64,000 nucleotides of DNA, taken from assembly GCA_022539475.1 (NCBI GenBank), contig VCMS01000108.1:124001-188000 (forward strand). Reading direction: 5' to 3'. Of this stretch, positions 4,735 to 35,827 are shown piece after piece (the stretch's first letter is position 1; each line of letters starts with the position of its first letter). Made by a program: the position numbers and the translations under genes. Source of the DNA: Gracilaria domingensis (Eukaryota; Rhodophyta; Florideophyceae; Gracilariales; Gracilariaceae). Under the pieces are notes generated by a model. It had not been told where the DNA came from, ran no database searches, and saw nothing but the letters and a program-made list of their open reading frames with translations.

Positions 4735-5052
4735 GTTTCACCTTGTGAAAGTGAGCGAAATGTATGATATGTGACTGTACTGAATGAATGATAGGGCTTC
4801 TATGAGACGACAAGCCACAAAGTGTGATGATGTTTTATGAAAAGTAGGTGGAAGAGTAGAAAGTGTACAATGAATGAAACTGATTTCGAACCTGAGTTGT
4901 ACAGTACGAGTTACGGAGAGCTTGAATACAGAATGAAAGGAGCCATTTTAGATTCATAAATGACGTGAACGGGTTCTATAACTTCACTCGGATTGCCGTA
5001 ATCTTCTTTTTTACTGAGGTATAAAAGGGGTGTATGTCTGGGAGCGAGAGGT
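4735..5052. promoter_or_regulatory. Divergent promoter region; TATA box at 5020-5027
   Basis: The 318 bp between the reductase-like gene (leftward) and the epimerase (rightward) contain TATAAAAG at 5020-5027 on the plus strand, about 77 bp before the conserved epimerase sequence. A start site near 5050 would be expected. No clear TATA box is seen for the leftward gene. Confidence 0.5.
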
Positions 5053-5781
5053 TTGGCGTTACTGAAGTTATCGTTGTTCACTTTCGATTCTGGTTTAATT
5101 ATAGCGCCATCAATTTTGGCTTCAGACTTTGCTCGCCTTTCAGATGAAGCGAGTGCAATGGAAGAGGCTGGAGCAGAGTGGCTGCATATAGATGTAATGG
5201 ATGGTCATTTTGTGGCGAACCTTACTGTTGGAACGCCTGTTGTGAAAGCGCTGCGGAGGCATACGAAATTGTTCTTGGACTGTCATCTGATGGTACCAGA
5301 TCCTGGGCGATGGATAGAAGACCTTGCAGAAGCAGGCGCAGACGGAGTTACATTTCATATCGAAAGTGTAGCTATAGGACTAGAAAAGTGCGAGGTACCA
5401 ACTGAGGAGGAGAACATGGTGTTGAAGGAATTATGTAACGCAATTAAAAGGATGGAGATGCAAGTTGGAGTTGCGTCGCGCCCGAATACGTCTATAAAGG
5501 TCGTAGAAGCACTTATGAAGGAAGGAGTTGTAGACATGTTATTGTTGACGACGGTGGAGCCAGGGTTTGGAGGACAGGCGTTTATGGAGGGTGTTCTTGA
5601 TAAGGTGCGACACGCAAGGGAGTTGTACGCAAGAATAGGGATACAGGTGGATGGGGGTATTGGACTGAGTACTGTGAAAGAAGTAGTGAAGGCCGGTGCA
5701 AACATTTTAGTTGCAGGATCTGCCATATTTGGCTCGAGTAACCCAGCTCATGTCATAGCTGGTTTTCGAAAGGTTAGTTAG
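5053..5781 (+). CDS. Ribulose-phosphate 3-epimerase (start uncertain)
   Basis: Interconverts ribulose-5-P and xylulose-5-P in the pentose phosphate and Calvin cycles. The (beta/alpha)8 barrel signatures are complete: APSILASDFARL at the N-terminus, WLHIDVMDGHFVANLTVG (catalytic Asp), DCHLMVPDPG, GADGVTFHIES, TTVEPGFGGQAF and IQVDGGIGLSTV (second catalytic Asp), then ILVAGSAIFGSS. The family core starts at 5101 and gives about 227 residues, the usual length. No ATG precedes it in frame: the frame opens at a TTG (5053) and the first in-frame ATG (5158) would delete beta-strand 1. TTTAATTATAG at 5094-5104 could be a 3' splice site, but I found no upstream ATG plus GT donor in the matching phase. 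A non-AUG start, an undetected short exon or decay of the 5' end are all possible. Confidence 0.85.
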   Translation: MALLKLSLFTFDSGLIIAPSILASDFARLSDEASAMEEAGAEWLHIDVMDGHFVANLTVGTPVVKALRRHTKLFLDCHLMVPDPGRWIEDLAEAGADGVTFHIESVAIGLEKCEVPTEEENMVLKELCNAIKRMEMQVGVASRPNTSIKVVEALMKEGVVDMLLLTTVEPGFGGQAFMEGVLDKVRHARELYARIGIQVDGGIGLSTVKEVVKAGANILVAGSAIFGSSNPAHVIAGFRKVS

Positions 5782-6673: not shown

Positions 6674-7403
6674 TTGCCTCCACTGGTGATATCTTCCTGT
6701 GAGGTTATGGCGGAAGAGAAAAATATCGCCGGTCGAGGCGAGGTGGGTGGGGACTATGTGAGAGCAAAAAAGGGGACAGAGGGGTGGCGCTTAAATAGTG
6801 GAAGGTGCGGAGGTGTATGTGGTGCAAAACCCCGCAAAGGGAGAAGACACGAAAGGCGTTCGGTAGCTTCCCTCGAAGAGGTAACCTCAGCAGATAGAGC
6901 GCTCCCAAGAATGGTGCAACGAGTCGGGTGTAAGCCGAGACCAAACCGTCACGACGGGCGTAGGGAGCTCAAGAGAGTCGGCCTAGAAGTCGGGGGATGT
7001 TGTGTAGACAACGGCGATGCCGGGCGTGAAGTGTCACGAGACAGACACACACACACTGATGTGGCACGGGCCGCGACGAGCGGGGCGAGCCACCAGATTA
7101 ACAAAATGGGGCAGACAGAAACACCGGCACACTGGTCGTGCGTACCTGTTAAGTGACAAATAAAAAAATACACACAATACCGGCGGAAAGGTCCACAAGG
7201 AGGATGATTAGTCCCTCACCAGGTAGTGACTCTCCGCGAGGAGACTATCACGCTCCAGAGGTTCCTGAGTCAGAGCCAACACTTGCTTGGTGCGTTTACT
7301 TGCCCAGTGTGGGTCGAGCTCACCTACCTAAGTAGGGTGGCCGACCCCACTGTCAGGGTGAAAATTAGTAGAATATTCTAAATATCTAAAACGTTAGAAA
7401 TAA
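6674..7403. repeat. Tandem block A (LTR flank plus R-U5 of a gypsy LTR)
   Basis: Matches 7675-8396 almost base for base, beginning TTGCCTCCACTGG and ending AAACGTTAGAAATAA. It contains 144 bp of non-LTR flank ending in GTGTA and then the terminal part of an LTR beginning TGTGGTGCAAAACC. Because the flank outside the LTR is also duplicated, this arose by local duplication or recombination, not by two independent insertions. Confidence 0.85.
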
Positions 7404-7569
7404 GTCTGAGAATCAGCAGCTGTGTTACCGACCGTGCCTCGCCGGATCTGAGGCCATTCGCAAGTTTGGCGTTCCGCGCAGTCTAAAGAGCTACCCTCGA
7501 CTGGTACCACAAGCGATACGTCAATGATTCGCTAGGCTGTCGACTTGTTGAAAGGCGTTGGCTCTTACA
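6818..7569 (-). repeat. LTR of a sister gypsy element (LTR Y), divergent U3
   Basis: Bounded by TG...CA on both strands (plus-strand start TGTGGTGC, end GCTCTTACA). Its R-U5 part (6818-7403) is nearly identical to the LTR of element 1. The U3 part (7404-7569) is different in sequence, sharing only short blocks such as GTAGCTCTTTA read on the minus strand. Inside it, on the minus strand, is a purine run TTAAGGGGGGATA like a polypurine tract. It is therefore the 3' LTR of a minus-oriented element whose interior has been lost apart from 7570-7674. Confidence 0.7.
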
Positions 7570-7674
7570 TATCCCCCCCTTAAGCGGGCGTCCACGCGAG
7601 CAAATTCCATCCGTTCGCGGAGTAGGTATAAATACTTCACTGTCTTGTTGAGTCGGGCCGAACCACTCGGATTA
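7570..7674 (+). promoter_or_regulatory. Remnant of an antisense-gene promoter beside LTR Y, TATAAATA at about 7627-7634
   Basis: About 105 bp of internal sequence next to LTR Y. It aligns with 8615-8693 of element 1: a shared CATATCCCCC-CTTAAG start, GCGAGCAA, TCCATC, TTCGCG, then a TATAAATAC box about 58 bp from the LTR edge. The downstream gene is absent; the sequence joins directly to block B. Confidence 0.6.
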
Positions 7675-8396
7675 TTGCCTCCACTGGTGATATCTTCCTG
7701 TGAGTTATGGCGGAAGAGAAAAATATCGCCGGTCGAGGCGAGGTGGGTGGGACTATGTGAGAGCAAAAAAGGGGACAGAGGGGTGGCGCTTAAATAGTGG
7801 AAGGTGCGGAGGTGTATGTGGTGCAAAACCCCGCAAAGGGAGAAGACACGAAGGCGTCGGTAGCTTCCCTCGAAGAGGTAACCTAGCAGATAGAGCGCTC
7901 CCAAGAATGGTGCAACGAGTCGGGTGTAAGCCGAGACCAAACCGTCACGACGGGCGTAGGGAGCTCAAGAGAGTCGGCCTAGAAGTCGGGGGATGTTGTG
8001 TAGACAACGGCGATGCCGGGCGTGAAGTGTCACGAGACAGACACACACACACTGATGTGGCACGGGCCGCGACGAGCGGGGCGAGCCACCAGATTAACAA
8101 AATGGGGCAGACAGAAACACCGGCACACTGGTCGTGCGTACCTGTTAAGTGACAAATAAAATACACACAATACCGGCGGAAAGGTCCACAAGGAGGATGA
8201 TTAGTCCCTCACCAGGTAGTGACTCTCCGCGAGGAGACTATCACGCTCCAGAGGTTCCTGAGTCAGAGCCAACACTTGCTTGGTGCGTTTACTTGCCCAG
8301 TGTGGGTCGAGCTCACCTACCTAAGTAGGGTGGCCGACCCCACTGTCAGGGTGAAAATTAGTAGAATATTCTAAATATCTAAAACGTTAGAAATAA
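7675..8396. repeat. Tandem block B
   Basis: Second copy of the block at 6674-7403, about 1,000 bp away. Relative to block A (and, where comparable, to the distal LTR at 19082-19903) it lacks single bases at several doubled or homopolymer positions: GAGGTT/GAGTT, GGGGAC/GGGAC, GAAAGGCG/GAAGGCG, GTTCGG/GTCGG, CCTCAG/CCTAG and a shorter A run near 8157. Confidence 0.85.
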
Positions 8397-8614
8397 TACT
8401 AGTTCTCCCTATGAATGGGCCTGGCAAGCACTACACGTGTGTGAAGAATCCAGCAAAGCTGTGTACACGACCGTGACCAATTCCCATTGTAACCATTCCC
8501 AAGTAATTGGCGAATCCGCGTACAAGTCATAAAGAGCTACACCTCACCTCCGTACCGGAGCGATTAGTATGAATCGCATAGGCGACAAACTTCCGCGAAA
8601 CGCGTTGCTCTACA
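7817..8614 (-). repeat. Element 1 3' LTR
   Basis: 798 bp. The plus-strand left edge is TGTGGTGC (after the GTGTA target copy); the right edge GCTCTACA is followed by the polypurine tract complement TATCCCCCTCCTTAAGG. Same orientation as and clearly homologous to 19082-19903. Confidence 0.9.
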
Positions 8615-8693
8615 TATCCCCCTCCTTAAGGAGCGAACCGACCGCGGGAGCAATCCTCCATCTCGCTTCGCGAGAGTATAAATACGCACCGCG
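8615..8693 (+). promoter_or_regulatory. Polypurine tract (minus strand) and TATA promoter of the antisense gene
   Basis: Plus-strand pyrimidine run TATCCCCCTCCTT is the complement of the element's polypurine tract at 8615-8627. TATAAATA follows at about 8671-8678, some 57 bp inside the LTR edge, pointing toward the antisense gene. Conserved flanking words (AGCAATCCTCCATC, TTCGCGAGAG) recur beside LTR Y and, more diverged, in element 2. The ATG at 8694 is only about 16-20 bp from the TATA box, so the transcript may start after it and use ATG 8878 (MNHQYNQQNQ) instead. Confidence 0.6.
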
Positions 8694-10655
8694 ATGAGCG
8701 GGGCGATACCGACTTCTCGTATTCGTACAGCACCTGCGCGCATTTCTCCCTCGCCTCCAGCGATACCTCGAGTCTCCTCGCCTTCGAGCTCAGGACGCGC
8801 TCACGCGAATCGTTCTTCTCCTCAGATACCTCGGGTTATATCCGCGCCTGCTTTGCCGACTCCGTCCGCCAAGGCGATGAACCACCAATACAACCAACAG
8901 AACCAGACCAACCAGGGAGCTGGGTCTAGTCAACCGAACGTCGGGAACGCACCTCCGCAGGCTGCGGGCGCCAATGCACCTGCGCCACAGGGTTACTTCT
9001 CCGGCTTTCGCTCCGCGCCTCTTCCCCAAGCTGGGTATGTTCAACCAACACAGTACCACCAGCCGCCGATTCAACCGTGGAACTGGGGCTTCTCTGCCAT
9101 GCAGGCTCCGCCGATGTTCAATCCGGGTCCCGGTAACTGGGCCTCCTATGAAGAGCTAGAGGCCGTGAATCCTGGAAGGAATCCGTCTCCGTATCTCCGG
9201 GCGCCGTGGTTTCACCCTCAGGAGGCTAGTCGATCCAACCTCGTTGAGGCGTATGCCGACGGCAGTGGCCTGTTACCAGGAGGAGTTCACGTCTTCGTGA
9301 CGATGACGTTCGACTGGAAACACCGGATTACCGTTCCTAACCAGGCTATCGTCCACAGTCGTGGGGAGTCCGATGCGTCCGCTCGAGCGGGGCTACTTCA
9401 CCTGGCTCACCAGCGTCTTCACCGTACGTACTCGGAACACCGGGTGCCGGGAGAATACCATTTTCGATGTGGCCTTCTACCGCACGATGGGCGAGATTCC
9501 CTACGGGGATAGCTTGGCTCGGATTGCGAGTTCGATTGGACAGTACCAAGGTTTTGGTGTTCACCAGAATCTCCTGTTGTGGACGCGTCCGCTTCTGCGT
9601 GCTGAGTTCCGGTACCTCCCGCATCGTTCGCGGTCTGACTACCTGCAGAACATGATCGGCTTTGAGCGTCGTAGCCGTTCCCGATGGGGATATTTGATTC
9701 CGTTTCAGAACTCTGAGGCGAACCGACTTCGTCCGAACCACATGCGTAGAAGGTATGTACCACTCCCATTCATCTGGGGATCTCTGGAAGTGTGCCGTGG
9801 ATGTTACGTGGGGCTGCCTCCGTGTATGACGTACGTAGGGAGCCGACTCCTTGCTGACCGGTTCTCGGGATGGTGGGTCGTTGTTATCACGGAGTGGGCT
9901 GCCCGCACGCCGGTTTACATCCTCCAAGAGGCGTACGACCAGTATCGGCTGTGTTTCATTCCTCCGCGTCTGCGTGGCAAGATTCGATCTCTAGATCTTT
10001 CGGTTCCGCTTGGCGGTGATGGAAACTTTTCCGAACTTCTGTCGCTGCTGCGAGTCATCTAGAATGTCGTGTCGACTGGACCCAGGTTCCTATGCAACAG
10101 AGCCGTCGTGAGGACGGGGATAGCCCTACGGACAGATCTACGGGGCGTCGCGCTCCCTTCGCGGGCGACTACGTCTTTTACGACCCGTGGACACGGACGA
10201 TTATCAGCTCAGCTGAAGCCGATGTAATCCGGCATGCCGAGAGATATGTCTCTGTTGTGCACCCGGTCGGCTTCGTCATCACCGATGAGTTCTTCCACCC
10301 CGTCGGGGACGAGGATCCAATGTTGGATGACGCGCCCAAGGTGGAAGTCGTACAAGACGAGGTCGAAGCTGACGCGACTCCTGTTCCAGGTCCTTCAAAC
10401 ACGCCGATGGCGGTGCCAGCGGTCACTCTGAATACGAGCGCTCCTGCAAACACAGTCGCCGCAGCGAGCGGGCCTACTGTTGGAAACATCTCCGATGCGA
10501 AGCGTGCTGCAATTATCGCCCAATTCCTGAATGATTCGGGGGTGCAGACGCCTGGTTCGGGGAATGTCACGCAGTTGCGGGATGCCCCCCAGAGCCACTT
10601 CCGTCAATCGAGCAACACTTCGGGGCCCGACGGTGCTGGGGGTTCGTCCTCGTAA
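8694..10655 (+). pseudogene. Antisense accessory ORF of element 1 (aORF1), function unknown, two frameshifts
   Basis: Not recognised. Reads opposite to gag-pol. N-terminal ~150 residues are Pro/Gln/Asn/Ser-rich low complexity. A conserved core starts at about 9140 (NWASYEELEAVNPGRNPSPY, then LPGGVHVFVTMTFDWKHRIT) and continues through RTYSE, GEIPYGDSLARIA, LLLWTRPLLRAEFRYLP, SRWGYLIPFQN, EVCRGCYVGLPPC (CxxC plus Cys), WAARTPVYI, YDQYRLCFIPPRLRGK and GNFSELLSLLRVI. After a linker with DYVFYDPWTRT and HPVGFVITDEFFHPVGDED, a last conserved motif AAIIAQFLNDSG sits near 10500-10540. The frame moves at about 9460 (frame of 8694 to frame of 9361) and back at about 10065. Element 2 carries a homologue (23717-25378) with strong identity across core, linker motifs and C-terminal motif. 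That argues for past protein-level selection. Confidence 0.8.
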
Positions 10656-11078: not shown

Positions 11079-14000
11079 CTACCCTACGAGGGCCATGTCA
11101 ATGTTGCGTGGCAAACCCGTTTTGATACGGCGATGGTAGCGCACGATTTGAGATCGGGGGAGGTGTTCAACCGGTTCTTCCGTGTCTCTAGACAGCGGCC
11201 AGCCATACCAGCGAACACGGTAGAGAATTTTCCCTCTTGGGTTGTGTCTGTGTCCCACAATGTGGTCCATCACGAACTCCTTCGGATACACTTCCCGAAC
11301 GGTGTCGTCGTTCTTACCCTGCTCCTCAGTAGAGTGTAGCGGTGTGTCAGGCGCTTCCGCGAGTTTCTCGGGAGCTTCCAACGCCTTCGGCGGTTTAGCC
11401 ACGCTCGTCCGAGTCGGACTAGTGAGGGCTAGGCTGCGCATCCCAGTACATTGGGCGGAATCCGCGAGTACGCGTGAACTAGCTCGCGCTCTTCCTGACG
11501 ACAAAGTCAGTGAAGGCGGATCGGTTGCCACGGCGCGTGCCGGTTCACGTGATCGGACACAACGGTTGGCGGGGGTATCACTGTCTGACAGTCGAGCTGG
11601 CCCACTGAGTGATGTGCCTTGTGCGCCAAGTGCCACGCTGCGCAACGGCTCTCCTGCAGGAGTAGTGTTGGTAATCCCCTCCGTGCGGCTCGGATCTGCC
11701 CCTCCAGGTGATCTGGGGGTCACGTCGTGGCGGCTAACGTCATCGCGACGGTTCGGGGGTGAACTTCCCGCGAGCGGGTCAGTGTCGATACATACTAAAC
11801 CCTTCTCGGGGTGAGAAAATTCCACCTCACTGTGTGTTGCACCGTCCTGTGGAAGAGTGCTAACTGTACCGGGATCCACCGTGACTTGCTTGCTTCGCGC
11901 GACACTGCGCGGTGCGTCGCAAGCGTCAACGACGGTGGACGACGGCGGAGCATCCGGTGCGCTTTCAGATTGCGTTACCAGGTGTCCTGTGTCATTACTC
12001 AGCCGAGGCGGCGGGTTTTACAAGTCCTTTGCCCGCTGTACCGAGCGAGCTTGGCGAGAGCGATCATTTGACGACTCCTGCGTGTCAGGCAATTGAACGG
12101 AGTCTTCCGGCGATACTTCCCTGGTATGGTGAGTAATACCAGTTTGCTGAGGCAGAACCTTGTCCAAAGACGTGTGAGTACGAGCGCTGACGCGACTGCT
12201 GTCCTCTGCAGAGGGGTGGGCCGTTTTCCTGACATCAGCACGCGTCTGCGAATCTGCCGACCAGAGAATCGGTGTCCCCTGAACGTAGCAGTCCTGGACG
12301 GAGCCCAGAAGCGATTCTACATCATTATTCCGTGTGCCGCGTGCGTTTGACGACGGTTGCGACACCGGAAGTACATCTTTAACGCCAAGGCGGGCATTCT
12401 CCTCCCCCTCCTTAGGTGAAGCGACGGAATTTGAAAGCACGTCAGTAGGCGGTGTAATCTCCGCAATAAAGCGAGAATGAATTAAACGGTGGGAGTCCGA
12501 AGACTCGGGAAATTGCGACGATAACATCGGAAGGTCTGATAGCCCTCTCGAGAGGTGCGGAACACTACGAGCATGAAAGGCTTCAGCCTCTGGCGAGTGC
12601 GCTGTAGATTGACGGTCTTCCGAGACAGTACTGGGAGCGACAATCTCCGTAACAGGGGTGGGACCTTGTAGGACGCGATCGCGGGAAAACCGCTCATGTT
12701 GATCACCAACTTCCAGTACAACTGTGTCCTGTTCTACAGAGATGATCTTGTAGGGCCCGTCCACAATTGGGGATAGTTTGTGACGATTCTCCTTTTCAGG
12801 ATTATAGTATTCTTTCCTTACCAAGGCGAATTGTTCCTTCTCCAAGGATGGTAGTGGCCGACGGATTCGGGCATCAAAGTTTCGCCTATATGAGAGTTGT
12901 ACCTTCGCCCTCGAAGATTTCGCAAAAGGTACCATAGTAGCGAGCCACGTTTTCCAACGGAGATAGTGATCGACCGTAGACGGGTACCTGTCCAGCGTCG
13001 GCTGTGGTTCGACTGCCACAGGCGGTGGAGGCCGCCAGAGTACCAGCTCAAACGGTGAGATGCCAATTACTCTGTGTACCTGCGTATTATACGCGTAAGT
13101 TACGGTGTCCGTGTACAAGTCCCATGTCTTGGGGTGATTGGCAGTGTACGCACGCAATGCGGACAACAACGTACGGTTGAACCATTCCACCTGCCCATTG
13201 CATTGGAGATGGTACGTCGTTGTGAACAAATTCTTCACATCGAGTATCCGACAGACATCCTGGAAGAAACGCGCAACAAATTGCGGGCCATTATCCGAGA
13301 GAAGGTTGACCGGTGGACTGTAGACGAAAACCGAGTCCTTAACGAAAGCTTCCGCAACAGTTTGTGCGTCAATTTTCTTCAACGGAACGGTCCGGACGAG
13401 TTTAGAAAACCTATCCGTAATGACGAGCAAATAGCGGTTTCCACGGGGAGTCCGGAGGAACTCGCCGAGTACATCGATAGCAACAAATTCAAGAGACGCT
13501 CGTGCGGGGAACAGAGTAAGCTTTTTCGCATGGCGACGAAGTTTCACTCGTTCTCGAGCACAGTTCGTACACGTCTTGACGGTAGCATAACAGTCAAGCG
13601 CTAAGGCGGGCCAATAGAAGTCCCGACGAAATGTCGTGTAAAGCTTCCTGGCACCTGGGTGAGCAGCAATCCTCGAGTAGTGCGAGAGATGCAAAACTCT
13701 TGATTGAAGGGAATGGGAAACCACGATTTGTAGGTTAGATCGAACCAGCCTAACCAAGTAACCTTGTGAGTTAACTCCGAAGGGAATCTTCGCACCGCCA
13801 TTCAGCTGGGCGCGTACCTTCGTACAAAACGGGTCTCCGTGCTGTTCACGAATTAACTCCTTGGGATTGATAGGGGCAAATGCGCCCGGACCGGGATCGA
13901 TACCGTTTGCAACGAGTATGTCATCGCATATATCATCCGAGAAAAACTCGTAGTCATTTTCATCCTCATGGAGTAAGAAACAGGGAATATCCTCATCGTC

Positions 14001-16541
14001 GTCGTCGACAGGAAGGGCTTCACCATTCGTTCCCAAACGGGAGAGAGCGTCTGCTTGGGTGTTCCAAGTTCCCTTCTTGTAGGTGACGTCGTAATCGAAT
14101 TCAGCTAGCCGAAGTCGCCAGCGCATTAATCGACCGGAAGGTTCCGTGATAGACATCAGCCAATGCAACGCAGAATGATCCGTGTTGACGGTAAAATGCA
14201 CACCCATAAGATATGGACGTAGTGTCTGAAGAGCCCATACCATGGCAAGACATTCCTTCTCTGATACAGAATAGTTCCGTTCATGAACGTTGAGTGTCCT
14301 AGATCAATAACCAATTGGTTTGCGTTCCCCATCGGGTGTGGTTTGAAATAAGGCACAGCCGATTTGGTGGGCACTCGCATCCGTATCTACGGCGAATGGT
14401 GATCCATTCTTTGGCAACGATAAGATCGGTGCTGAGGTAACTGCCTCTTTGAGAGAGTCGAATGCTTCCGCTTGTGCGGGAGCAAGAGGTTCCCGTGTTG
14501 GTGGTTGTCCCTTCCTAAGAAGGTCGTTGAGAGGTCCTGCGATCTTCGCGAAGTGCGGAATAAACCGTCGGTAGACGTTGCATAGCCCTAAGAAGGAGCG
14601 TAGCTCCATCTGAGTTGTAGGGTGTTTAGCCTCCTTGAGTGACTTCACACGAGCTTCCTCGATCAGCAGCAGTCCAGGACGAATAACCTGTCCCAGATAC
14701 TTGACTGAGTCAGCGAAAAACTCACATTTCCTCAACTTGAGTGTTATTACAGCATCACGTAGCGTGGCCATGATCTCCCGAACATGTTCGAGGTGATCAT
14801 CCAAGTTATTGAAGAAGACTATGATGTCGTCCAGGTAGACGAGGCAACTTTGCCACTTAAAGCAGGCGAGTAGGATATCCAGAGCGCGCTGAAAAGTAGT
14901 GGGGGCATTCGTCAGCCCGAATGGCATACGCTTGAAGCGGTATAACCCTGAATGACAGGTGAAGGCTGTCTTATCACGGTCTTCCGGACGAACGAGTACT
15001 TGTCAGTATCCCCAACTCGCATCCAACGTGGAGAACATGGTCGCGTCGCCCAGCGAATCGATATACGCATCCATACGTGGAATAGGGTACACTTCTTTGA
15101 TGATGACATCGTTAAGGTGACGATAATCTGTGCAAAAACGCCAGGACCCATCGGGTTTTCGAGCCAGTACAGCTGGAGATGCCCATGGTAACTAAGCGGG
15201 CTCAATCACGCCTGCGCGGAAAATTTTATCCACTCGGAACTGTTCTTCCTCCCGTGACTTCGGGCCTGCCCTATACGGGTGTTGAGCTATCGGCTTCGTA
15301 TCTGGCAACAGATCAATCAGATGTTCGGTGGTAGAAACCTCTCCGAGGGCTCCATCCCACATTGGTGTGAACTCACCCAACATCTCGCGTAACTTCTCAG
15401 GGTGTGAATCCGGTACGTGACCCAAATCTAACTGTTCTGATTCCTTGAGAGGATCGAGTGTGTCAAAACTCGTAGAAAAGTCCTTCCTTTCCGAATCCTT
15501 CGGGTTGTTACGCTCCACTGAAGAAGGCGATAAGAGGACACCCTCCACCCCCTCCTTAGAGGAAGTAACTGCATTTGCGGGTTCGAGGAGGCCCAGAACT
15601 TCGGCAGCAGAAACCTTAGTAGGAATAAGGGCGGTAGGGTGCGGGAGCACCGTGCCGACAACTTGATTCTTCATAAGATACTGAGCCTTCTTTCCGAAGT
15701 TTGCGACCATAACTCGAAAGGGGCGTCCATCAGAGATCTGAACAACACCGTTTGCAAGCGCGAGCTGGTACTTCTCGTACAGAGACTGGAGTGGTTGAAC
15801 AACTCGTAACCCACGGGGTGCGGCGATGACGTCAATACAAACCTGCGAGCCAGGGGGTACAAGAACAGGTCGCACGACGCGAAGTTTGGGAGACTCTTTC
15901 GAGGGTATTGAGTACTGTAAAGGAGCTGGCAGTGGTACTAGTTTCGCTGTCGCCCTTCTCAGTGAACGACGAACAATCGGTACAACCGAACCATCTTCCA
16001 TTTCTACTTCACGCATACGCGGCTTGATTGACTCGACATAACGGTCGCAAAAGTCACCTCCCAGGATGACAGGGGCAGCAAGCGTCTTACAGACGATAAA
16101 ATCGAGCTGTGAAACACAGTTGCCGATTCTGATTAGGATCGTGACCATTGCAGCCGTCTTTAGCGTGTTATTATTAGCGTCCGCCACGTCCATGACGGGT
16201 CCTTGTCGAGCTCGACAAAGGATTTCCTGTGGGGAAAACTATTCGACAATGAAATTGAGACCGGTACCTGTATCCAATATGGACAGATGTCGCACCATAT
16301 ACTGCGTGGATAGGCCAAGATCTGCAAAAACCTTGTAGTTCCTCTTAGCCATCACCATGACTCGGTCCGGGATCCGGTTGTTCCTAAACCGTATCCACGG
16401 GCGACGCAACACACCAACGGTAGTAGAGTCCACGTCTAGGTTGGCCTGTTTCCTTGAAAGGATTGTCACCGGGGAGCGAGGCGGCGACGCCTCGGGCGCC
16501 TTGGGCCTCACATTGGGCGCCTCTTCGTCGGAGACTCCCTA
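11079..16541 (-). pseudogene. Element 1 pol: protease, RT, RNase H, integrase, chromodomain
   Basis: One continuous frame of about 1,820 codons interrupted by stops near 16539-16541, 16239, 15192, 15006, 14304 and 12018. Aspartic protease SILDTGTGLNF is near 16265. RT shows PFGLTNAPTTFQ and the active-site LVYLDDIIVF around 14830-14930. RNase H follows, with KGTWNTQADALSRLG around 14050. Integrase has the HHCC zinc module (HPGARKLY...CTNCARER), the first Asp in FVAIDVLGEF, SDNGPQFVARFF and NGQVEWFNRTLL with the catalytic Glu, then a GPY/F motif KLSPIVDGPYKII. A long Ser/Pro-rich linker leads to a C-terminal chromodomain: DHIVGHRHNPRGKILYRVRW. Each stop fits a single CAG/CAA to TAG/TAA or TGG to TGA change relative to the family. 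Confidence 0.92.
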
Positions 16542-16543
16542 AC

Positions 16544-16556
16544 TCAGTTTAACTGT
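16544..16556 (-). other. Candidate -1 ribosomal frameshift site at the gag-pol junction
   Basis: On the minus strand the gag frame ends CAG TTA AAC TGA. The heptamer G TTA AAC (16553-16547) immediately precedes the stop and fits the -1 slippery pattern (GUUAAAC is used by some nidoviruses). A -1 slip enters exactly the pol frame: the distance from 16547 to pol codon 16511 is a multiple of three. In this copy pol meets a TAG two codons later. Confidence 0.5.
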
Positions 16557-18564
16557 GCTCCATCCGTTCTAACGGGAACGGCGTCCTGTCCTCCAGGGAT
16601 CCGCGAGGATTCCTGTGGAACTGTAGTCGGACTACCCGTAGCAGAGGTTGCCGCTACGGCTTGAGCCGATGAATACTTAACCTGGGGAGAACCAGAGTGT
16701 CGCAACTCAGCAATTTCTGCATCCGAAATCCTTCGTGGAAATTCTGTCTTAGCGCGCAGATATGCAGTCACGGGCACTAACGCCTGCTCTTCCTGACTCA
16801 TTGATTCGTAATTCACCACTACTTTGGGCATTTCCTTCAACGTGAGGCTGCAGTTTGGTGCTGCATGCCCATAGCTGTGGCAAGTATAACAGATCAACTT
16901 CGGGGTTTTCTTTCCGACGCTTCGTGGGTCTTGCACCTTCACCGTCCGCGATTCTACCCAACCAGGTCGCTGGTAGCGGCTACCGGCGTAGGGTATCTGC
17001 GCGGCTCGAACACGAGGGTGGTCTGCATAAAGCAGTTGGGTGTCCGTCACCATTGAGCCTTCGGTCGTGGACGGCAACTTCATTGTCGGAACAGAGACCA
17101 GGTCCTCCTGTGCGAAGTGCAAGTTATCCACTTCGTGGCCAAGATGATCCTGCTGAAGCAGTGACACCGACGATGGCGCTCCTTTGACATTAAGCGCCTT
17201 GGATGGAACACGCTATCCGGAGCGAGCACGCAGCGCGTCGCCTTCCGCTTTCGCGTATTGCACTAACTCAAGATACGTAATCTTCCTCTTGTCCTCCCGT
17301 CTTTGGGCGACTAGAGTGCGAATGGCCGGACTAAATCCGTTGATCAGCAGCCTTCAACGTTCATTAGGGGGGGAAACATTGGCACAACGGTGGAAAACCT
17401 TATTCAGACGAACTGAGAATTCGGTTTCCGATTCCTTCGGGCGTTGCTTCGTTTCCCGCAGCGTGGTAACGGCTTCCTCATGGCGCCATTAGTCGCGTAC
17501 GAACGGAGTAGATACTGTACGGCTTCGGGCCAACAGGTGACCCCTCCTTCAGAGACTCGAGAGGAACCTGTTACAGAGTTGAATTGATCTTCTGCGAGGC
17601 CTCGTAGGAAGTACTGCAGGGCGACGTAAGCCTGACCTTCACTAATTCCGAGGATGTCTGCTTCTGCGACAAAGCGTGAGAGAAACTCCAGCACTTGGAT
17701 AGGATCTTCCCCAGTAAATAGCTGGTTGCGAAAGGACAGTGTCATCCTTTTGATGCAGTCCTTGACTTTTTCCATACCCCGGGCTGTCCGATTCAAACAA
17801 GCGGTAGTACCGATAAGACAAAAGCTTCTTGAAAAAGGGATTGGTTGGCTCCAGTTCCTTCAAAGCTGAATGCTTCCTCCACTTCCTTCGGGTTTGGATC
17901 TCACCATAAGTGGGTGTCGAACGGCGCGTCCGCGATGAGCGAGCACGGCGTCCTCCCTCTATTGATGAGTCCGATGAGGACGACTCCACAGAGCGATTTG
18001 AATTCACCGATGACCGGGACGAGTCCGAGTCATAGTCTTGGTCTTACCTCTTCCTTGAGTGGGGTTTCCCGGACTTCCGGTTACCAGCGCGAGACGAAGT
18101 CACCGCAGTTGCGTCGTCTCAAGACGGCCGAATATCCGATTGAACTTCGTATCCACCTCTTCGGTAAAACCGACGTAGCCTCCAAGAACCTCAAGTAGAG
18201 AGTTAACATCCTTCTGAACAATACGTAATACCTCTGATACATCCTCGTCCGAGGCGGCGTCAACCTTCAAACGAAGTGTATTGACCTCGCTGAGGAGAGC
18301 AGGATGAGAACTTCTCATGACCGCCGTTTGAGCCTCAAGGGTTCGAACTTGAGCCTCTAACTCCACAACGAGCGCATCACTCACCACAACAGCGGGCGTT
18401 GAAGGCCCAGCTACTGGGGTGTCTAACGACTTGGGTGCTGACTTCCGGATTCCGGACCTTCCATTCGATCCCACCGGTGGTTCCGGGACGGACCGCGGTC
18501 GCGGAGGTAATTCCGAACCAACTGATCGCGCCTTAGACGGACTAGACTTCTTGCCTGAGCCCAT
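16544..18564 (-). pseudogene. Element 1 gag (capsid and CCHC zinc knuckle), frameshifted
   Basis: ATG 18564 (MGSGKKSSPSKARS) opens a 155-codon N-terminal part with a predicted coiled coil (LVVELEAQVRTLEAQTAVM; later EVLRIVQKDVNSLLEVL). Ser/Arg-rich sequence around 17900-18000 continues in another frame. A capsid-like segment (LFTGEDPIQVLEFLSRFV, then GQAYVALQYFLRGLAEDQF) lies at 17540-17730. A final frame at 17167-16544 holds the zinc knuckle CYTCHSYGHAAPNC (CX2CX4HX4C) near 16880. At least three frame changes break it, so it cannot be translated whole here. Confidence 0.85.
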
Positions 18565-19081
18565 CGTCACTGACGAGAACGAGAGAAAGCCCGAACCTGC
18601 TGGATATCAGCTGACAAACAGATAAAATAACCTTCTATGAGTGTTCCGTCTCCACAATAGTGAGTTGCAGGCGCAATAGAAACCACCGTACCGACGGGAA
18701 TCGCACACTACGGAAGTAGGAGAGTTCTATCGGCACAGCCGGGACAAGATTTTTCTCGGAGAAACAACCACCGTACCGACGGGAATCACACACTACGGGA
18801 ATAGGGTAGAAGTTTCAGCGGAAAAACCTTATCTGCGCAGTAACTCTTGCGGAAAACAACACAGCAAACGACACCAGAATCGAGACGGAGTCACAGTCCG
18901 ATGACTACGAATAGTGGTCCTCCCATTCAATTGTGCGTTCTACACTTCCACAGCGGAATGAATCCAACACGACGTCGAATTGTCGGAAACAATCCAGGAA
19001 ACCTGTGAACTTCAGAGTCACCCACGACAGCGAGTCGGAAGCCCTTTGTACAGGCTCGACTTCTAAGTCGGGAGACAGAAA
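18565..19081 (-). other. Element 1 5' leader between LTR and gag, with a ~40-bp direct repeat
   Basis: Contains two direct copies, 18681-18720 and 18766-18806, sharing AACCACCGTACCGACGGGAA and then TCACACACTACGG (one base differs). A palindrome CGACTTCTAAGTCG lies at 19057-19070, 11 bp from the LTR edge. No canonical TGG-type primer binding site directly follows the LTR on the minus strand (it reads TTTCTGTCTCCCGACTTAG). The primer tRNA cannot be named. Confidence 0.6.
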
Positions 19082-19903
19082 TGTGGTGCAAAACCCCGCA
19101 AAGGGAGAAGACACGAAAGGCGTTCGGTACCTTCCCTCGAAGAGGAAACCTCAGCACATAGAGCGCTCCCAGGAATGGTGCAACGAGTCCGCTGTAAGCA
19201 GAGACCAAACCGTCACGACGGGCGTAGGGAGCTCAAGAGAGTCGGCCTAGAAGTCGGGGGATGCTGTGTAGACAACGGCGATGCCGGGCGTGAAGTGTCA
19301 CGAGACAGACACACACACACTGATGTGGCACGGGCCGCGACTAGCGGGGCGAGCCACCAGATCAACAAAATGGGGCAGACAGAAACATCGTCACACGGGT
19401 CGTGCGTACCTGCTAAAAAGTGACACAAACAAGAAAAACAAGTAAAACAATACACACAATATTGGCGGAAAGCTCCACAAGGAGGATGATTAGTCCCTCA
19501 CCAGGTAGTGACTCTCCGCGATGAGGCTATCACGCACCAGAGCTTCCTGAGTCAGAGCCAACACTTGCTTGGTGCGTTTACTTGCCCAGTGTGGGTCGAG
19601 CTCACCTACCTAAGTAGGGTGGCCGACCCCACTGTCAGGGTGAAAATTAGTAGAATATTCTAAATATCTAAAACGTTAGAAATAACACTAATTCTCCCTA
19701 TGAATGGGCCTGGCAAGCACTACACGTGTGTGAAGAATCCAGCAAAGCTATGTACACGACCGTGACCAATTCCCATTGTAACCATTCCCAAGTAATTGGC
19801 GAATCCGCGTACAAGTCATAAAGAGCTACACCTCACCTCCGTACCGGAGCGATTAGTATGAATCGCATAGGCGACGAACTTTCGCGAAACGCGTTGCTCT
19901 ACA
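19082..19903 (-). repeat. Element 1 5' LTR
   Basis: 822 bp, TG...CA, followed on the right by GTGTA (19904-19908), the second target-site copy. Longer than the 3' LTR mainly because of an AAACAAGAAAAACAAGTAAA-type stretch around 19425-19450. Confidence 0.9.
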
Positions 19904-19908
19904 GTGTA

Positions 19909-20070
19909 CAGTAGATGTTTTGGCGGGAAATGGGATGATAGAAACAGGGACAATCATGGTGCTGGATATAGCCCGTGTGGTTAGAAAGTGGGGGTGGACA
20001 GCACAGCTTAACTCGATTGCACTGTATCGCAGCGAAAACTTCGATCCATCTACTACTTCTTCTTCTGAAG
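19909..20070. other. Short region right of element 1, nothing recognised
   Basis: Before the insertion this sequence continued from the GTGTA at 7812-7816. No coding signal or repeat boundary was recognised. The coiled-coil ORF begins at 20071. Confidence 0.3.
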
Positions 20071-21106
20071 ATGTCGAACGGATACCTGAAGGATGAGGAG
20101 CTGTTAACGCTGTTGGAGGGGAAGGAGGAACCGCCGACGCCGTCACCAAGGCGGGAATAGGACGTGATTACGGCGGCTGGTCGGATGTCGCAGAAGAAAA
20201 AAGTGGCCGATGAAGGAAAGAATTGTGAGGCGAGGAGAGGGGATGGTGATAAGGTGGAGAAGGGGGTAGAATTGGAGGTGGAGGGGGTCGCAATGGAGAG
20301 AAGGGGTGCGGTGCATCTGAGTCAGTTAGAGGTTGGAGACCGGATAGAGAGTGGGGGGGGAGAGGGTGACACGAAGATGCGGTTTGCCGTGGAGATGAAG
20401 GCGAGGGTGGGGATGTTGGGGTTGGTAATGAAGGAGCGACTGGACGATGGCATTGTGGAGATTGTAACGGAAATAGGCGGTGTGGTGCTGAGTGGGGGTG
20501 GTAGTGGTGTTTCGGTTGAGGCGATTTCGAGCCTGCGGAATTCGTTATCGGTATTGGGAGTGGAGATGAGGAATCATGTGTATAGGATAGTGGAGTGTGC
20601 GGAAAGGGAGGTTGGAGAGTTGCGGGAGGAGAATAGGGTTCTGAACGAGAGGTTGGACGTGCTGGAGAAGGAGGTGAAGGAGCTGGGCAAGAGGCAAAGA
20701 TTGGTGGAAGAGGACACGGTGAAAGGAGGTGTGGAGGGAAAGACGGAGAAGGGAAGTGGGGGAAGGGTGGCGATGCAGAAGGGGTCCCCTGTGACACCGG
20801 AGACAAAGGGTGGTGGGGTTGGGGATGGGAAGAGCCGTCTGAAGAAGAGGCGTAAGGAGGTGAAGAAGGTGGTGGAGGAGGGGCCGCGGGAGGGAGTCGG
20901 GGCTCCGTTGTTGACTGGGTTTAAAAAGTGCGACAGAGGTAACGTGGACGGCGAAGGGGATTCTGAGGGGACAGGAGGAGAGAAGGATGGGAGGGATGTG
21001 AAGCCGTTTTGGGGCGAGGCGGGTATACGAGAATGTCGAGAGTTGCCCACCTGACTTCTACGAAATGACGTTTGCGGAGACGGAGAGGGAGCATGCGAAC
21101 GCGTGA
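20071..21106 (+). pseudogene. Purine-rich coiled-coil protein gene, interrupted (unrecognised)
   Basis: ATG 20071 (MSNGYLKDEELLTLLEGKEE) reads 29 codons to an in-frame TAG at 20158. The same frame then stays open to 21054. The middle is Gly/Glu/Lys-rich with a heptad coiled coil (REENRVLNERLDVLEKEV near 20620-20680) and a basic stretch KSRLKKRRKEVKK. Near 21020 a +1 shift gives a sensible acidic tail (VYENVESCPPDFYEMTF ... ERE) ending TGA at 21104-21106. About 340 codons in total. The plus strand is strongly purine-biased for about 1 kb. No family recognised; it may be a gag-like or ORF1-like protein of another element. The minus-strand Pro/Ser frames are low-complexity shadows. Confidence 0.45.
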
Positions 21107-21469
21107 TGGGCGAAAAATGGGTAAAGAGTGGGGGTGATATGGAATGGGAAGAAATGATGGGATGATTGAGGTGGGATGAGTTGCGATTGGCATTGCAACA
21201 TGGGAGAAAATGGAAACGCAAACTAGCACGAGCGCAGTTTTGAGAGAGGGTCGCGGAAAAGAGGGGATGGGGTCGTGCGGCGAAGTAGAACCTCTACAAA
21301 ACCTAGGAGACCGAAGAATTAAACTGCGCGAGATGGAATTTAATATTCCAAAATTTCTTAATTTTTTGAGTGCCAGCCTCTGCCACCCCCTCGCGCGCCC
21401 CAAATAGCCCAAAAACCAGCCTACTTTCCAAATCGAACAGACTATATTCCACTTTGCAGAACACAGACG
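21107..21469. other. Junction region, nothing recognised
   Basis: Between the coiled-coil ORF and the point (about 21470) where element 2 integrase homology starts abruptly. No LTR or target duplication was found, so element 2 is 5'-truncated here by deletion or rearrangement. Confidence 0.35.
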
Positions 21470-23190
21470 GTAGAACACCTAGCCTTTGTCAGGAAAGAAT
21501 GTTATAACCCTGAAAAGGAGAGGCGTCACAAGCTTTCATCCATCGCCAACGGCCTATACCGCGTTATCACCGTGAATCAGGACACAGTCGTATTGGAAGT
21601 TGGTATCGCTCATGAGCGTTTTTCCCGCGATTGCCTTGTAAAGGGCCCGACCGTTCATACGGAAGTCGTTTAGGATGCACAGCAAGAAGCTGGACAGGCA
21701 GAGAACCGAGAAACCTCGTCGCAGAACGCTACACCCACTGGGGAGCTCCCTCACTTAACAAGGGGTCTCGCAGAAGTACCGATTATATCGTCGCAAGCCG
21801 AGTTATCGGAACACCCACTGTTGGTGAAATCACGTTTCACAGCGTCAACTGTACCGTCAACAGACGTGATGACTGCTCTTCGTAACGTTCCAGCTATGGA
21901 GGGGGAGGGGGACTCACGCGTCGTCGCGGAAGAAGAATCACCTGTGTCACCGTCGCAGACATCCCGTGGTTCACGGAAGAGTAGGGAAGAAGAGGCAGAG
22001 TGGCCTCAGGACACCGCCGAAGACGTAGTTGCTACGGATGACGCTGATAGTGAGAAGAACCGCCCGCTGTCGCGTGTGGAAGTCGAGAAGGATGAGCCGC
22101 AGTCGGTCGCTGTCGCGCAGAACTCTGCGGAAGATACGCAACCTTTCCCGAAGGATAGCGACCTTCGAGAAGGACGCCGCACGCAACGAACGGACTCAAG
22201 GTTGTCCCGGAATACTGGTAATGCTCACCCATACGGGGAATTGTCGCCGGAACACGCGCCCATCGTCACAAGGACGCAGCACGCGGAGCATGCTCTCGTT
22301 CGCAAAACTTTCCACGGCAAGGCCGGAAGTTGATCAAGAACACCCGACTTCTCGGCAGAGCAAGGCTACAGCGAAGCTGGATACTGTATCACGAAGTACT
22401 TCGGACGCGCGTTCGTTGCAAACCGTCGCTGGCGACGGCTGCGAACCGCCTTCGCAGGCGCACGCAAAGGAAGTCATGGCAGATCCCGGTGTCCTTTACA
22501 CTGCGGAGCAGGAAGAAGAGAAGGCGCTGGCTGAAGCGAAGACCAAGCACCCGGGTTCGGGTAGTGGTAGTGTACCGTTGTAACCAACCGTGGGGAAGTC
22601 GCAAGTCGCACGTCATAACGTTCCAACAAGCCATGACGGCGCACCGCTCGTTGGAGATACGGATTACAGCCCTGATTTAGGGATGACGCATATTGCTGCC
22701 GCAGGAACGCCTGCTCACCACAAATCTCGTGGCGCGCAACGCACGCCACACAGTGGGCCAATCATAGAGCGTGGCAGCGCCACCACCGCGAAACGTCGCC
22801 TGTCCGCAGGTGAACCGGCACGTGGCGTGGGAAAAAGTCCGCCTCCGCGTCCGCCATCACCACCGAGACGAGAATTCCCGCATGAACTAGCCGTTCGCGG
22901 ACCGGCCGAAGCGGCGAAGCTGCTTAGGAACACCTGGAGTCGGAAAGTGGACACTCAACAGAGGACACACTTACCGCCAAAGGCGTCAGCTCATCATCAC
23001 AGCAGCGCTGGTACCGAAGTCACGGAACCGCCGCAGCGCGCTGACGACCCTTCGCAGGAAGAGCTCGAACGGGGCGTATACTCGAAAGATTTTGTCCTAG
23101 AACACATCTTGGGGCACAGTTGGAACCCGAAGGGGTATGTTCAGTACCAAGTACGTTGGTATGGCTATCCGACGTCGCACTAACACGGCG
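21470..23190 (+). pseudogene. Element 2 integrase C-terminus, linker and chromodomain
   Basis: Starts EHLAFVRKECYNPEKERRHK, matching the corresponding element 1 integrase segment. It continues through the GPY/F-type ANGLYRVITVNQDTVVLEVG to a TAG near 21670, then a disordered linker in the same frame with GELPHLTRGLAEVPIISSQA and SRFTASTVPSTDVMT. After a frame change the chromodomain reads YSKDFVLEHILGHSWNPKGY and then VQYQVRWYGYP, and stops before its end (23181). Strongly homologous to element 1 pol but decayed. Confidence 0.85.
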
Positions 23191-23716
23191 TTGGCGGCTA
23201 ACCTACACCAGGAAATGTGCGGTTAACACACGTCGTTGGAGACGGAGGCTTGTCGCGTACCGCGCACGAACGGTCCTACGAACTACGACCATCATTCGAG
23301 GAGAGCTGCGACCTCCAGAGAAGTAAAGTACCGCCACTCGCGTGGCAAAGATACATCTGTGAAGAGAAAAGTTGACGTTCGAACAGTTATGCCCTCAGGA
23401 AGAGGAGAAGTTAAGAACCTCTCGTAAGAGGAAGAAGACTCAATGAAGAGAAAATGGAAACTCAGAAGAGAAAGAAGCAGTAGTAGGAGGAAGATGAACT
23501 CGTAAGAGGAAGGACCACTCGTAAGAGGAAGATCACCCCGGAAGGGAGAAGTTAAGAAGTATACACCTTGGCAGAAGGGAAGAAGTCTGGAGATCAAGAG
23601 AAGTTCATAGTTTTACTGGTCGTTGTTACTAGGTTGTGGCTCGCTAGTCGAGCACACAACGGCGAAGTTATTGGGTATCAGCTAGGAAGGGCTCCTTGGA
23701 GGGAAAGCTGCCCGAG
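23191..23716. other. Purine-rich spacer with CTCGTAAGAGGAAG repeats
   Basis: Lies between the converging 3' ends of element 2 pol and its antisense gene. CTCGTAAGAGGAAG occurs at 23421-23434, 23499-23512 and 23518-23531 within a GA-rich stretch (23330-23600). Counterpart of 10656-11078 in element 1. Confidence 0.6.
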
Positions 23717-25378
23717 TTACTCGGATTCTTGCTGGTCTTCCATACTCGCAAGCTGCGCTATCAGCGCGTCGCGCATCTGCGAGACGTCGCCAGATGCCGC
23801 GTCGGAGAGACCAGCCTCGCTGAGGAACTGAGCAATCACGGCAGCCCGTCCTTCGTTGCAGAGTCCCGCGTTCACGGCTTCGTTCGGCGTAGCTGACGCC
23901 GTCACCGCAGGCGAAGCAACAGTCTCCGCTGGAGTTGGGACCGCCACAGGCGTAAGAATCGGAGCTACTACGGGCCCAGGAACCGCTAGAGGCGCAGAAG
24001 GAACATTCACCGGAGTCGGGAGGGCCGCTTTAGCACTCGCTTGGGGACCTGGCACTGCTGGAGCAGGTACTGCACCCTCCACAGGAGCTACCGCGAAGTC
24101 GTCATCGCCGTACTCGTCACCGTCATCGGGAGCATCATCAACCATGATGTTCTGATCCCCAACAGGGTGAGAGAATTCATCAGTTAGGATGAAGCCCGTA
24201 GGGTGCCCCGGAGGGATGACTCGCTCGGCATCCGGAAGAAGTTCCGCCTTGGCGTTAGTAGTCGGCACCCGTGTCCAGGGGTCGTAATAGATGTAATCAT
24301 GGGACAGTGGGGACCTGCGACCCGGAGACCGGTCAATGGCGAGGTCGCCTTCGGCTCGCGCGCTTTGCGAACGAGGAACCTGGTTCCAGTCGACTCCTTC
24401 AATCACTCGCAAGAGGGACATCACTTCCGAGAAATTTCCATTACCGCCAAGAGGGATATTGAGATCCAAGGTTTGCATTAGTTGCCGCAAGCGCGGGGGA
24501 ATGAACCACAGTCGATACTGGTCATACACGTCGTTGCGGAGATACACCGCTTTTCGCGCCGCCCATTCCGTGAGGACGACGCTCCACCACCCCGCAAACG
24601 AGTTTGTCACCAGCCTACTGCCTAAATATGTGAGACAGGGTGGGAGTTCCACGTCACAACCACGGCAGACTTCCACCGACGCCCCCACAAACGGGAGAGG
24701 AACGTATCTCCCACGCATGTGGCGCGGACGGATCCGGTTTGACTCCGTGTTTTGATACGGGATAGGGTAACCCCATCGGAATCGGGCACGTCGCTCGGGA
24801 TGGATCATCGTTTGAAGGTAGTTGGACCGCGGCAAGCAGGGAAGATATCGAAATTCAGCAGGCAGGAGCGGACGGGTCCAGCACAGGAGATCTTGGTGAA
24901 CGGGGACGTTCTGGTAACGCTCCACCACAGCGGCAAGCCGGGCAAGATTCACTCCGTACTGAATTTCGCCGAGTATTCGGAAGAAGGACACGTCAAAACG
25001 GAAGTTCACTGGAATGGAGAGCTCTGAGTATGTGCGAAACATTTGCATGTGCGCTACGCGAACCATGGCCGGTCGAGCGGAGTTGTGGCACTGACCACGA
25101 TAGTAAACGAGCGCGTTGGTAGGCACGGTAATCCGGTAATGCCAGTCGAACGTCACCGTCATCCAGACGTGCACTCCGCCTGGGAGGTGACCGCTACCAT
25201 CGTCATAAACCTGAACGAGGGAACGGTTGGTCACGCCTCGCGGATAAAACCAAGGAGCCCGTAGGAACGCTGTAGGATTGCTGCGAGGGTCGAAGTTGTC
25301 GAGTTCGTCATATGACGCCCAAGCGCCCGCATGCGGATTGACTACCAGTTGGACCGGGACAGCAGGAGCGATCCAGTT
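23717..25378 (-). CDS. Antisense accessory ORF of element 2 (aORF2), function unknown
   Basis: Not recognised as any known family. About 553 codons are open from a TAG at 25379-25381 down to 23717; homology to aORF1 is visible across the whole stretch. Shared landmarks: WASYDELDNFDPRSNPTAF, LRAPWFYPRG, GSGHLPGGVHVWMTVTFDW, RTYSELSIP, GEIQYGVNLARLA, LCWTRPLLPAEFRYLP, RWGYPIPYQNTESNR, EVCRGCDVELPPC, YDQYRLWFIPPRLR, GNFSEVMSLLRVIEGVDW, DYIYYDPWTR, a Pro/Ala-rich linker and the terminal AAVIAQFLSEAG. The original protein began further upstream: Gln/Pro-rich sequence continues in the same frame to about 25660 but carries two stops (25379 and one near 25570). No ATG near the start of the open part; the first likely in-frame initiator is a GTG at 25234. 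No signal peptide or membrane segment seen. The long intact core in an otherwise decayed element implies selection before inactivation. Confidence 0.8.
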   Translation of the reverse strand, partial: NWIAPAVPVQLVVNPHAGAWASYDELDNFDPRSNPTAFLRAPWFYPRGVTNRSLVQVYDDGSGHLPGGVHVWMTVTFDWHYRITVPTNALVYYRGQCHNSARPAMVRVAHMQMFRTYSELSIPVNFRFDVSFFRILGEIQYGVNLARLAAVVERYQNVPVHQDLLCWTRPLLPAEFRYLPCLPRSNYLQTMIHPERRARFRWGYPIPYQNTESNRIRPRHMRGRYVPLPFVGASVEVCRGCDVELPPCLTYLGSRLVTNSFAGWWSVVLTEWAARKAVYLRNDVYDQYRLWFIPPRLRQLMQTLDLNIPLGGNGNFSEVMSLLRVIEGVDWNQVPRSQSARAEGDLAIDRSPGRRSPLSHDYIYYDPWTRVPTTNAKAELLPDAERVIPPGHPTGFILTDEFSHPVGDQNIMVDDAPDDGDEYGDDDFAVAPVEGAVPAPAVPGPQASAKAALPTPVNVPSAPLAVPGPVVAPILTPVAVPTPAETVASPAVTASATPNEAVNAGLCNEGRAAVIAQFLSEAGLSDAASGDVSQMRDALIAQLASMEDQQESE

Positions 25379-25381
25379 CTA

Positions 25382-34767: not shown

Positions 34768-35007
34768 CGCGGCGGCGCGGCGGCGACGGCGGCGCGCGGC
34801 GGGCGCGGGGGGGCGGGGGCGCGTTGCGCGGGCATGCGCACGATCACGCGCGCATGATGCGCGTAGCTTTGTAGCGCACGCGCGCTGTTACCACGCGCTG
34901 TATGCCGCCACGTGTGCGGTTTTTTTCGCGGGAGCGAGAGCGCGCGTGTGACGAGAAGTTGGTTTACGTGAAGGTGGGCGGTGGAGGGGGGTAAGGAGCG
35001 CGCCGCG

Positions 35008-35775: not shown

Positions 35776-35827
<52 letters not shown>

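Follow-up and report, generated by a model that had tools for sequence, protein, structure and literature searches.

What is the long gene that lies opposite to pol, beside the 3' LTR, in two related retrotransposons of the red seaweed Gracilaria domingensis, and what might its product do? A sequence-only reading of the 64,000-nucleotide stretch of DNA analyzed here (the window) had described it as a conserved antisense accessory gene of a Gypsy chromovirus lineage, belonging to no known family, and our analysis supports that description. As far as sequence can establish it, an old protein-coding gene has persisted here in decayed form; a clade of chromoviruses in the Gracilariaceae carries it in antisense orientation, immediately internal to the 3' LTR.

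Anatomy of the two antisense copies

The first copy resides in a minus-strand Gypsy chromovirus, element 1, which spans from its 3' LTR (7817–8614, with TG..CA ends) to its 5' LTR (19082–19903). The two LTRs are 93.8% identical by BLASTN, and the target-site duplication GTGTA flanks them on the left (7812–7816) and on the right (19904–19908). Its pol, also on the minus strand, comprises a reverse transcriptase part (14304–15002, an open reading frame with a YLDD motif recognized by eye), a segment with RNase H, the integrase zinc-binding and core domains, and linker (12018–14303; Pfam PF17917, PF17921, and PF00665), and a tail of linker and chromodomain (11079–12017, an open reading frame in which the chromodomain, ..LYRVRWYGW..EPVEHLPRS.., was identified by eye). 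The protease region and gag (15192–18606, minus strand) are broken and were assigned by position; a candidate zf-CCHC knuckle within 16544–17212 scored E 0.26, below the Pfam cut-off. Element 1 is old, as the ∼6% difference between its LTRs and the disruption of its gag, pol, and antisense frames show.

The antisense gene of element 1 (8694–10655, plus strand) lies in the interval that separates the 3' LTR from the chromodomain end of pol; its ATG (8694) is 80 bases away from the LTR end. This copy is broken: its homologous frame shifts at two places, near 9.46 and 10.06 kb, leaving frames at 8682–9512, 9307–10062, and 10020–10655, and intact relatives were found among genomic loci L009–L028. 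On our reading of the sequence, several families have in common an internal Met ahead of an N/P/Q-rich stretch (8877–8879, plus strand), which may be the true start of the protein, since in the family of the genomic copy L012 constraint is weaker on the codons that precede it.

Adjoining the 3' LTR of element 1 on its inner side is AAGGAGGGGGATA (sense strand; 8615–8627, minus strand), which by its position and purine content probably serves as the polypurine tract. The motif recurs, slightly varied, in 11 of 11 upstream regions compared, and a 24-mer made of this tract and the LTR start occurs 420 times genome-wide with at most 3 mismatches, against 0 for the reversed control. The internal spacer holds a TATA-like box (8677–8684, plus strand) 17 bases before the first ATG of the antisense gene; it is a putative promoter element and is present as TATAAATA, TATTTAAG, TATAAGTA, or TATACATA at the same place in L012-like copies, L030, and element-1-like copies, and none was seen in L039 and L040. 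An upstream motif, CTACAT.TCCCCC, was rejected as a shared promoter element, being the LTR end plus the polypurine tract. To the left of element 1 there is a second LTR-like copy (6674–7700), in which 6674–7403 is 98.9% identical to 7675–8396, flank included. After this segment come the diverged end of an LTR, a polypurine tract, and a TATA-like box (72.6% identity to 8493–8685). We read this as a probable local tandem duplication fused to the 3' end of a related element.

Element 2, on the plus strand, is a remnant truncated at its 5' end and runs from 21477 to 26661. It begins with a pol tail containing linker and a chromodomain remnant (21477–23178, plus strand; 85.6% identical to L012 by BLASTN), to the left of which BLASTN found no gag, reverse transcriptase, or 5' LTR match to L012, and it ends with a 3' LTR (25850–26661, plus strand, by BLASTN against L012; left edge approximate). 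Its antisense gene is a 553-codon open frame (23717–25378, minus strand), and the N terminus lies outside this frame, continuing upstream through two in-frame stops. The position first proposed for the gene in both elements, between the chromodomain and the 3' LTR and on the strand opposite to pol, was thereby confirmed, and the motifs named for it (CRGC..LPPC, FIPPRLR, and AAIIAQFL/AAVIAQFL) are present and align in both window copies. A long antisense gene is likewise real in both elements, but both window copies proved to be old and broken, and neither is intact.

Copies and relatives of the antisense gene

We searched the species' own assembly (77,892,253 bases in 680 contigs) with the element 2 protein and found at least 90 matches (78 of 1265 candidates scored). 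Twenty-five of these 90, the window's own included, were full-length and stop-free over all 553 residues. Of 20 copies retrieved from the upper end of the ranked match list, 18 had the same 721-codon frame, with 681 residues from the first ATG; pairwise, these intact reading frames differ by 0 to 93 bases of 2043. The element family appears to have been active recently, because the LTR pair of one copy, with the duplication TTCAA, shows 0 mismatches in 818 aligned bases.

Relatives of the antisense protein were found in Gracilariopsis chorda and Agarophyton chilense. Two distant database relatives were also used as queries against the genome. P0003 gave 78 matches, most of them broken (17 were stop-free in the matched part), and P0005 gave 83, of which 32 had a stop-free 610-codon frame, in a list that overlaps that of the element 2 query. 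At all four distant loci that were fetched (L039–L042), the opposite strand bears a pol tail in which integrase and chromodomain motifs were identified by eye; the tail is in one frame in L039 only. A 444-residue protein from a 19-kb ENA contig, P0010, was matched at E 3.7e-4, with an hhalign probability of 95 and 25% identity over 137 columns, and is possibly a remote relative.

The association with pol is regular. Downstream of 32 of the 59 pol matches covered by a capped scoring, at 1.46–2.37 kb, lies an antisense gene match, in 32 of 32 cases on the opposite strand; the other 27 comprise 17 with the filler described below and 10 others, among them element 1 of the window, gene-bearing but unscored, so that 32/59 does not give the exact gene-bearing share. 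Overlap with pol was ruled out as the cause of the open antisense frame, as in L012 the pol stop and the antisense stop face each other about 500 bases apart.

Among six loci, identity in the antisense core was 0.71 between L012 and element 1 and 0.40–0.62 in the other 14 pairs, and identity in the integrase stretch was 0.75 and 0.61–0.75, respectively. The two divergences are roughly correlated (r = 0.74 for the 15 pairs, as a raw coefficient). The sequence-only reading had noted that the pol linkers are more diverged than the antisense core. We found the same: with L012 (86% identical to element 2) standing in for element 2 against element 1, the linker is 34% identical over 439 residues and the core 71% over 202 residues. 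An alignment of nine family members contains 64 invariant columns.

Selection on the antisense protein

The 153 pairs of the 18 intact copies gave a mean dN of 0.0109 and a mean dS of 0.0494, with a dN/dS of 0.22, which is biased down somewhat because copies with open frames were picked among the highest-ranked matches. Between L012 and other subfamilies, dN/dS was 0.15–0.29 (core, 0.10–0.28), and looser values were obtained for L033 versus L034 (0.35) and for the decayed pair of L029 and element 1 (0.47). Conservation had been the central claim about this gene, against which a ratio near 1 would speak, and the ratios obtained sustain it. In the comparison of L012 with element 1, the middle part of the antisense gene gave 0.16, integrase-linker pol 0.23, and reverse transcriptase pol 0.08; the reverse transcriptase part is tighter than the antisense core.

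Codon changes found in at least two copies were 56 synonymous and 31 non-synonymous, against 22 and 35 for singletons (Fisher p = 0.0035); in the core alone, the ratios were 21:7 and 15:20 (p = 0.012). This contrast is as expected if the gene is needed during element replication and is free to decay after insertion. Along the gene in the L012 family, pN/pS was 0.42 for codons 1–53, 0.21 for codons 54–160, and 0.16 for the core; the C-terminal tail gave 1.05 with very few changes. Since a dN/dS of 0.22 and 64 invariant columns require selection on a protein, these comparisons demonstrate, at the level of sequence, that replicating lineages keep the antisense gene as a protein under purifying selection. 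The dN/dS among the intact copies, the 90 matches in its own genome, and the relatives in other Gracilariaceae also indicate that the gene is not a chance open frame.

Lysine avoidance

Over its 681 residues, the antisense protein is lysine-free in 16 of the 18 intact copies, and the other two have one lysine each, both singleton variants. L012 contains 0 lysines and 51 arginines in 681 residues, and its gene has 0 AAR codons versus 34 AAY codons (P about 1e-8 given third-base composition); no lysine deficit was found in pol, gag, or one host frame of the window. Base composition therefore does not explain the missing lysine. The same codons number 0 and 23 in L029 (P = 1.9e-6).

Distant members are lysine-depleted, not lysine-free. 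L039, L040, L041, and L042 have 2, 8, 5, and 7 lysines (P = 0.004, 0.004, 0.0006, and 0.1), the deficit in L042 alone not being significant. The ratio K/(K+R) is 0.04–0.16 in these four and 0–0.24 in P0001–P0009 (0 to 8 lysines), versus 0.29–0.35 in pol and gag.

We compared changes to lysine in replicating lineages (0 of 360) with those among decayed copies and singleton variants (11 of 268); the p value of 7.6e-5 is a guide only, because the pairs overlap and are non-independent and unpolarised, and decay may run from G/C to A/T, making lysine codons. In pol the same contrast gave 12 of 260 and 19 of 404. Lysine itself would seem to be avoided, because AAR is missing with AAY normal and decaying copies gain lysines. 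The sequences of the intact copies indicate firmly that the L012-like lineage keeps its antisense protein lysine-free. According to the available text of PMC10665810, a lysine desert is a run of at least 150 lysine-free residues or 50% of a protein, and such deserts occur in fewer than 10% of eukaryotic proteins; with 0 lysines in 681 residues, 16 of the 18 intact copies are lysine deserts.

A sister subfamily without the gene

From the 27 pol matches without a scored antisense gene we fetched four, L035–L038 (C33, C476, C26, and C176). All have about 2.1 kb of unrelated, stop-rich DNA in the gene's place, a non-coding filler nearly as long as the lost gene. These sister elements are 91–95% identical to L012 in the LTR and about 93% in the pol tail, and in the replaced stretch they match L012 only over 57 bases round the polypurine tract and 131 bases on the pol side. 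Their mutual identity is 98.3–99.6%, and an 801-base piece of the filler matched 40 times, with identity rounding to 100% in 17 cases; by these sequences, the subfamily is recently amplified. Given that the gene occurs in element 1 and in the distant families, the simplest reading is that the filler state is derived.

Since the sister elements amplify without it, the antisense gene is dispensable in cis, and an essential role in cis was ruled out. The filler elements may depend on the gene in trans. Alternatively, because their own pol frames are long and open, with 1851 codons in three of the four loci, they may not need the gene at all rather than borrow its product.

Properties of the antisense protein

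No significant Pfam family match was obtained for the antisense protein, and at E values up to 10 neither TRP28 (PF04195) nor any other family matched in six members; identity with TRP28 was thus ruled out. Among 14 members, weak matches appeared in one member each, to a zinc ribbon (E 0.011), a PWWP-like domain (0.11), and DEC-1 (0.31). The best PDB sequence matches, E 2.5 for query A1 and 0.14 for query A2 (ribosomal L7/L12), were both treated as chance, and Foldseek with a core model of moderate quality returned no significant match, viral or PDB. The earlier statements that the protein belongs to no known family and is unlike the Retand-type antisense proteins hold in these searches.

The protein is arginine-rich, with short RRR/RKR runs in some members, and models predict a mainly helical core with P/S/A-rich, low-confidence tails that are probably disordered. 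With Pfam, no E3, F-box, SOCS, or DNA-binding domain was recognizable, and there was no significant match to F-box, BTB, SOCS, DCAF, or RING. The maximum 19-residue hydropathy in 11 antisense proteins was 1.52, below the usual cut-off of 1.6 for a transmembrane segment, and none of the 11 is likely to have such a segment. An Env-like protein was ruled out on this ground and because sense orientation would be expected of it.

Comparison with known systems

Antisense accessory genes are a known kind. Those termed aORF-3R, in the Grande (gene23), RIRE2, Retand (ORF4), PvRetro13, and Boty elements of plants and a fungal element, are antisense open reading frames between pol and the 3' LTR that are present in many copies and conserved about as well as other element proteins, and their role is given as unknown in the available text of PMC7264820. 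The seaweed gene resembles them in position and orientation, lying antisense in the interval from pol to the 3' LTR (all 32 scored neighbours and all four distant loci), and, by the dN/dS comparison, in being conserved like other element proteins. It differs in that its protein has no Pfam match to the domains that the same text reports for aORF-3R and in that its host is a red-algal chromovirus, with a lysine-free protein in one lineage and a gene-replaced sister subfamily. From Retand it differs further, as no PF04195 match was found in six seaweed proteins and as Retand elements are non-chromoviruses, whereas the seaweed elements have a chromodomain (element 1, L012, and L039–L042, by eye).

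VANDALs are DNA transposons, in contrast to the LTR retrotransposon that hosts the seaweed gene. The likeness to VANC of the Arabidopsis VANDALs, element-encoded accessory proteins that act on related copies (PMC5735166, seen in part), would lie in the proposed role only. The retroviral HBZ and ASP genes are similarly antisense at the 3' LTR end (PMC10186651, in the text available); the seaweed gene differs in having no overlap with pol and, in part of the family, a TATA-like box in the internal spacer. Long lysine-less stretches are common among components of the ubiquitin system, with San1, Slx5, VHL, SOCS1, and mycobacteriophage proteins as examples, and are thought to prevent ubiquitylation or pupylation (accessible parts of PMC10665810 and PMC10169902). 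The seaweed protein is instead retrotransposon-encoded, has no recognizable ubiquitin-ligase domain, and in the L012 lineage is lysine-free throughout, not just over a stretch. Chromoviruses were already known from red algae (PMC3605345, in part). Among the entries listed (8 to 20 for each query, of up to 947 found) in the open-access literature searched, no title or abstract opening names an antisense gene of a red-algal retrotransposon or a lysine-free retrotransposon accessory protein; within those entries there was no precedent for the protein family, its occurrence in red algae, its avoidance of lysine, or a sister subfamily in which the gene is replaced.

Possible function of the antisense protein

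The reading that we favour, at a probability of roughly 0.4, is that the gene encodes a trans-acting, ubiquitin-evading accessory protein whose most likely task is counter-defence. The gene would be transcribed from its own promoter at the edge of the 3' LTR and polypurine tract, convergently with pol, and the product would be a soluble intracellular factor acting in trans on copies with the same LTR; action in trans would explain why the sister subfamily could drop the gene and yet amplify. The lysine desert would let the protein persist against the ubiquitin system or work with it. Most likely, the protein would eliminate or disable a host factor responsible for silencing or restricting the element, in the manner of retroviral accessory proteins and VANC proteins. 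A more specific version, which we regard as unlikely, is that a lysine-free adaptor docks on a red-algal ubiquitin ligase and delivers a silencing or restriction factor of the host for proteasomal degradation, with the sister subfamily benefiting in trans; the lysine-free state would keep the adaptor from being ubiquitylated along with its target. Viral hijackers of ubiquitin ligases often lack the domains sought above, and lentiviral Vif and Vpx are adaptors that work by the same logic, which a non-infectious LTR element of a seaweed would, by analogy, have reached independently.

A nuclear regulatory protein of the Grande/Retand kind, which would bind the LTR/polypurine-tract region and so tune how its own element is transcribed or integrated, is possible though doubtful. 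It would share genomic position and orientation with the plant aORF-3R genes (PMC7264820, in part), and the arginine richness and RRR/RKR runs would fit it, with lysine depletion as an incidental result of, for example, arginine preference for nucleic-acid binding. The Pfam searches of six members, in which neither TRP28 nor another family appeared, weigh against it, as does the absence of AAR with normal AAY and the gain of lysines in decaying copies, which point to avoidance of lysine itself. We consider a structural or packaging role, as a second Gag-like or particle-entry protein, still less probable than this, and improbable in its own right: the predicted disordered tails round a helical core are in keeping with it, but gag-like frames, recognized by eye, are already present upstream in the element, no viral or PDB match reached significance with Foldseek, and the sister elements amplify without the gene.

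Gene capture is reported in plant LTR elements (PMC7264820, in part), and a host gene captured once had been set against the idea of a conserved accessory gene. We hold capture by one element, with hitch-hiking thereafter, to be very unlikely here: the gene recurs in distant families at 40–62% core identity and in other Gracilariaceae, its divergence roughly follows that of pol (the same raw r of 0.74), chromovirus pol adjoins it on the opposite strand at every distant locus fetched, and no host-like copy was seen among the matches examined, a minority of all matches. Slimmer still is the chance that the antisense RNA and not the protein matters, convergent transcription yielding double-stranded RNA by which the element limits itself. 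The convergent layout, with stops about 500 bases apart in L012, would suit such control, which is discussed for other retroelements (PMC7264820 and PMC10186651, each in part); however, the dN/dS and the invariant columns require selection at the protein level, and the sister elements keep just the 57 bases near the polypurine tract and the 131 bases on the pol side. Antisense RNA as the sole function is therefore disfavoured by the sequences.

For the role of antisense genes, the family offers several handles, namely many intact recent copies, a gene-less sister with nearly the same LTR and pol, and distant families. Lysine avoidance, which shows up when replicating copies are set against decaying ones, adds a biochemical clue. 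If the protein does counter a host defence, the question arises of how red algae silence transposons.

Other features of the window

Positions 1–300 and 29281–29580 form a direct repeat, 99% identical and 29.3 kb apart, which is probably another transposable element. Between the two elements, 20161–21054 is of low complexity with long open frames on both strands, and the GC skew over 20001–22000 is 0.36. The G+C content is 70% at 34001–36000, with CCG and GGGGAGGGCG repeats, versus about 45–50% over most of the window. An intron-free frame resembling ribulose-phosphate 3-epimerase, identified by eye, is located at 5002–5781.
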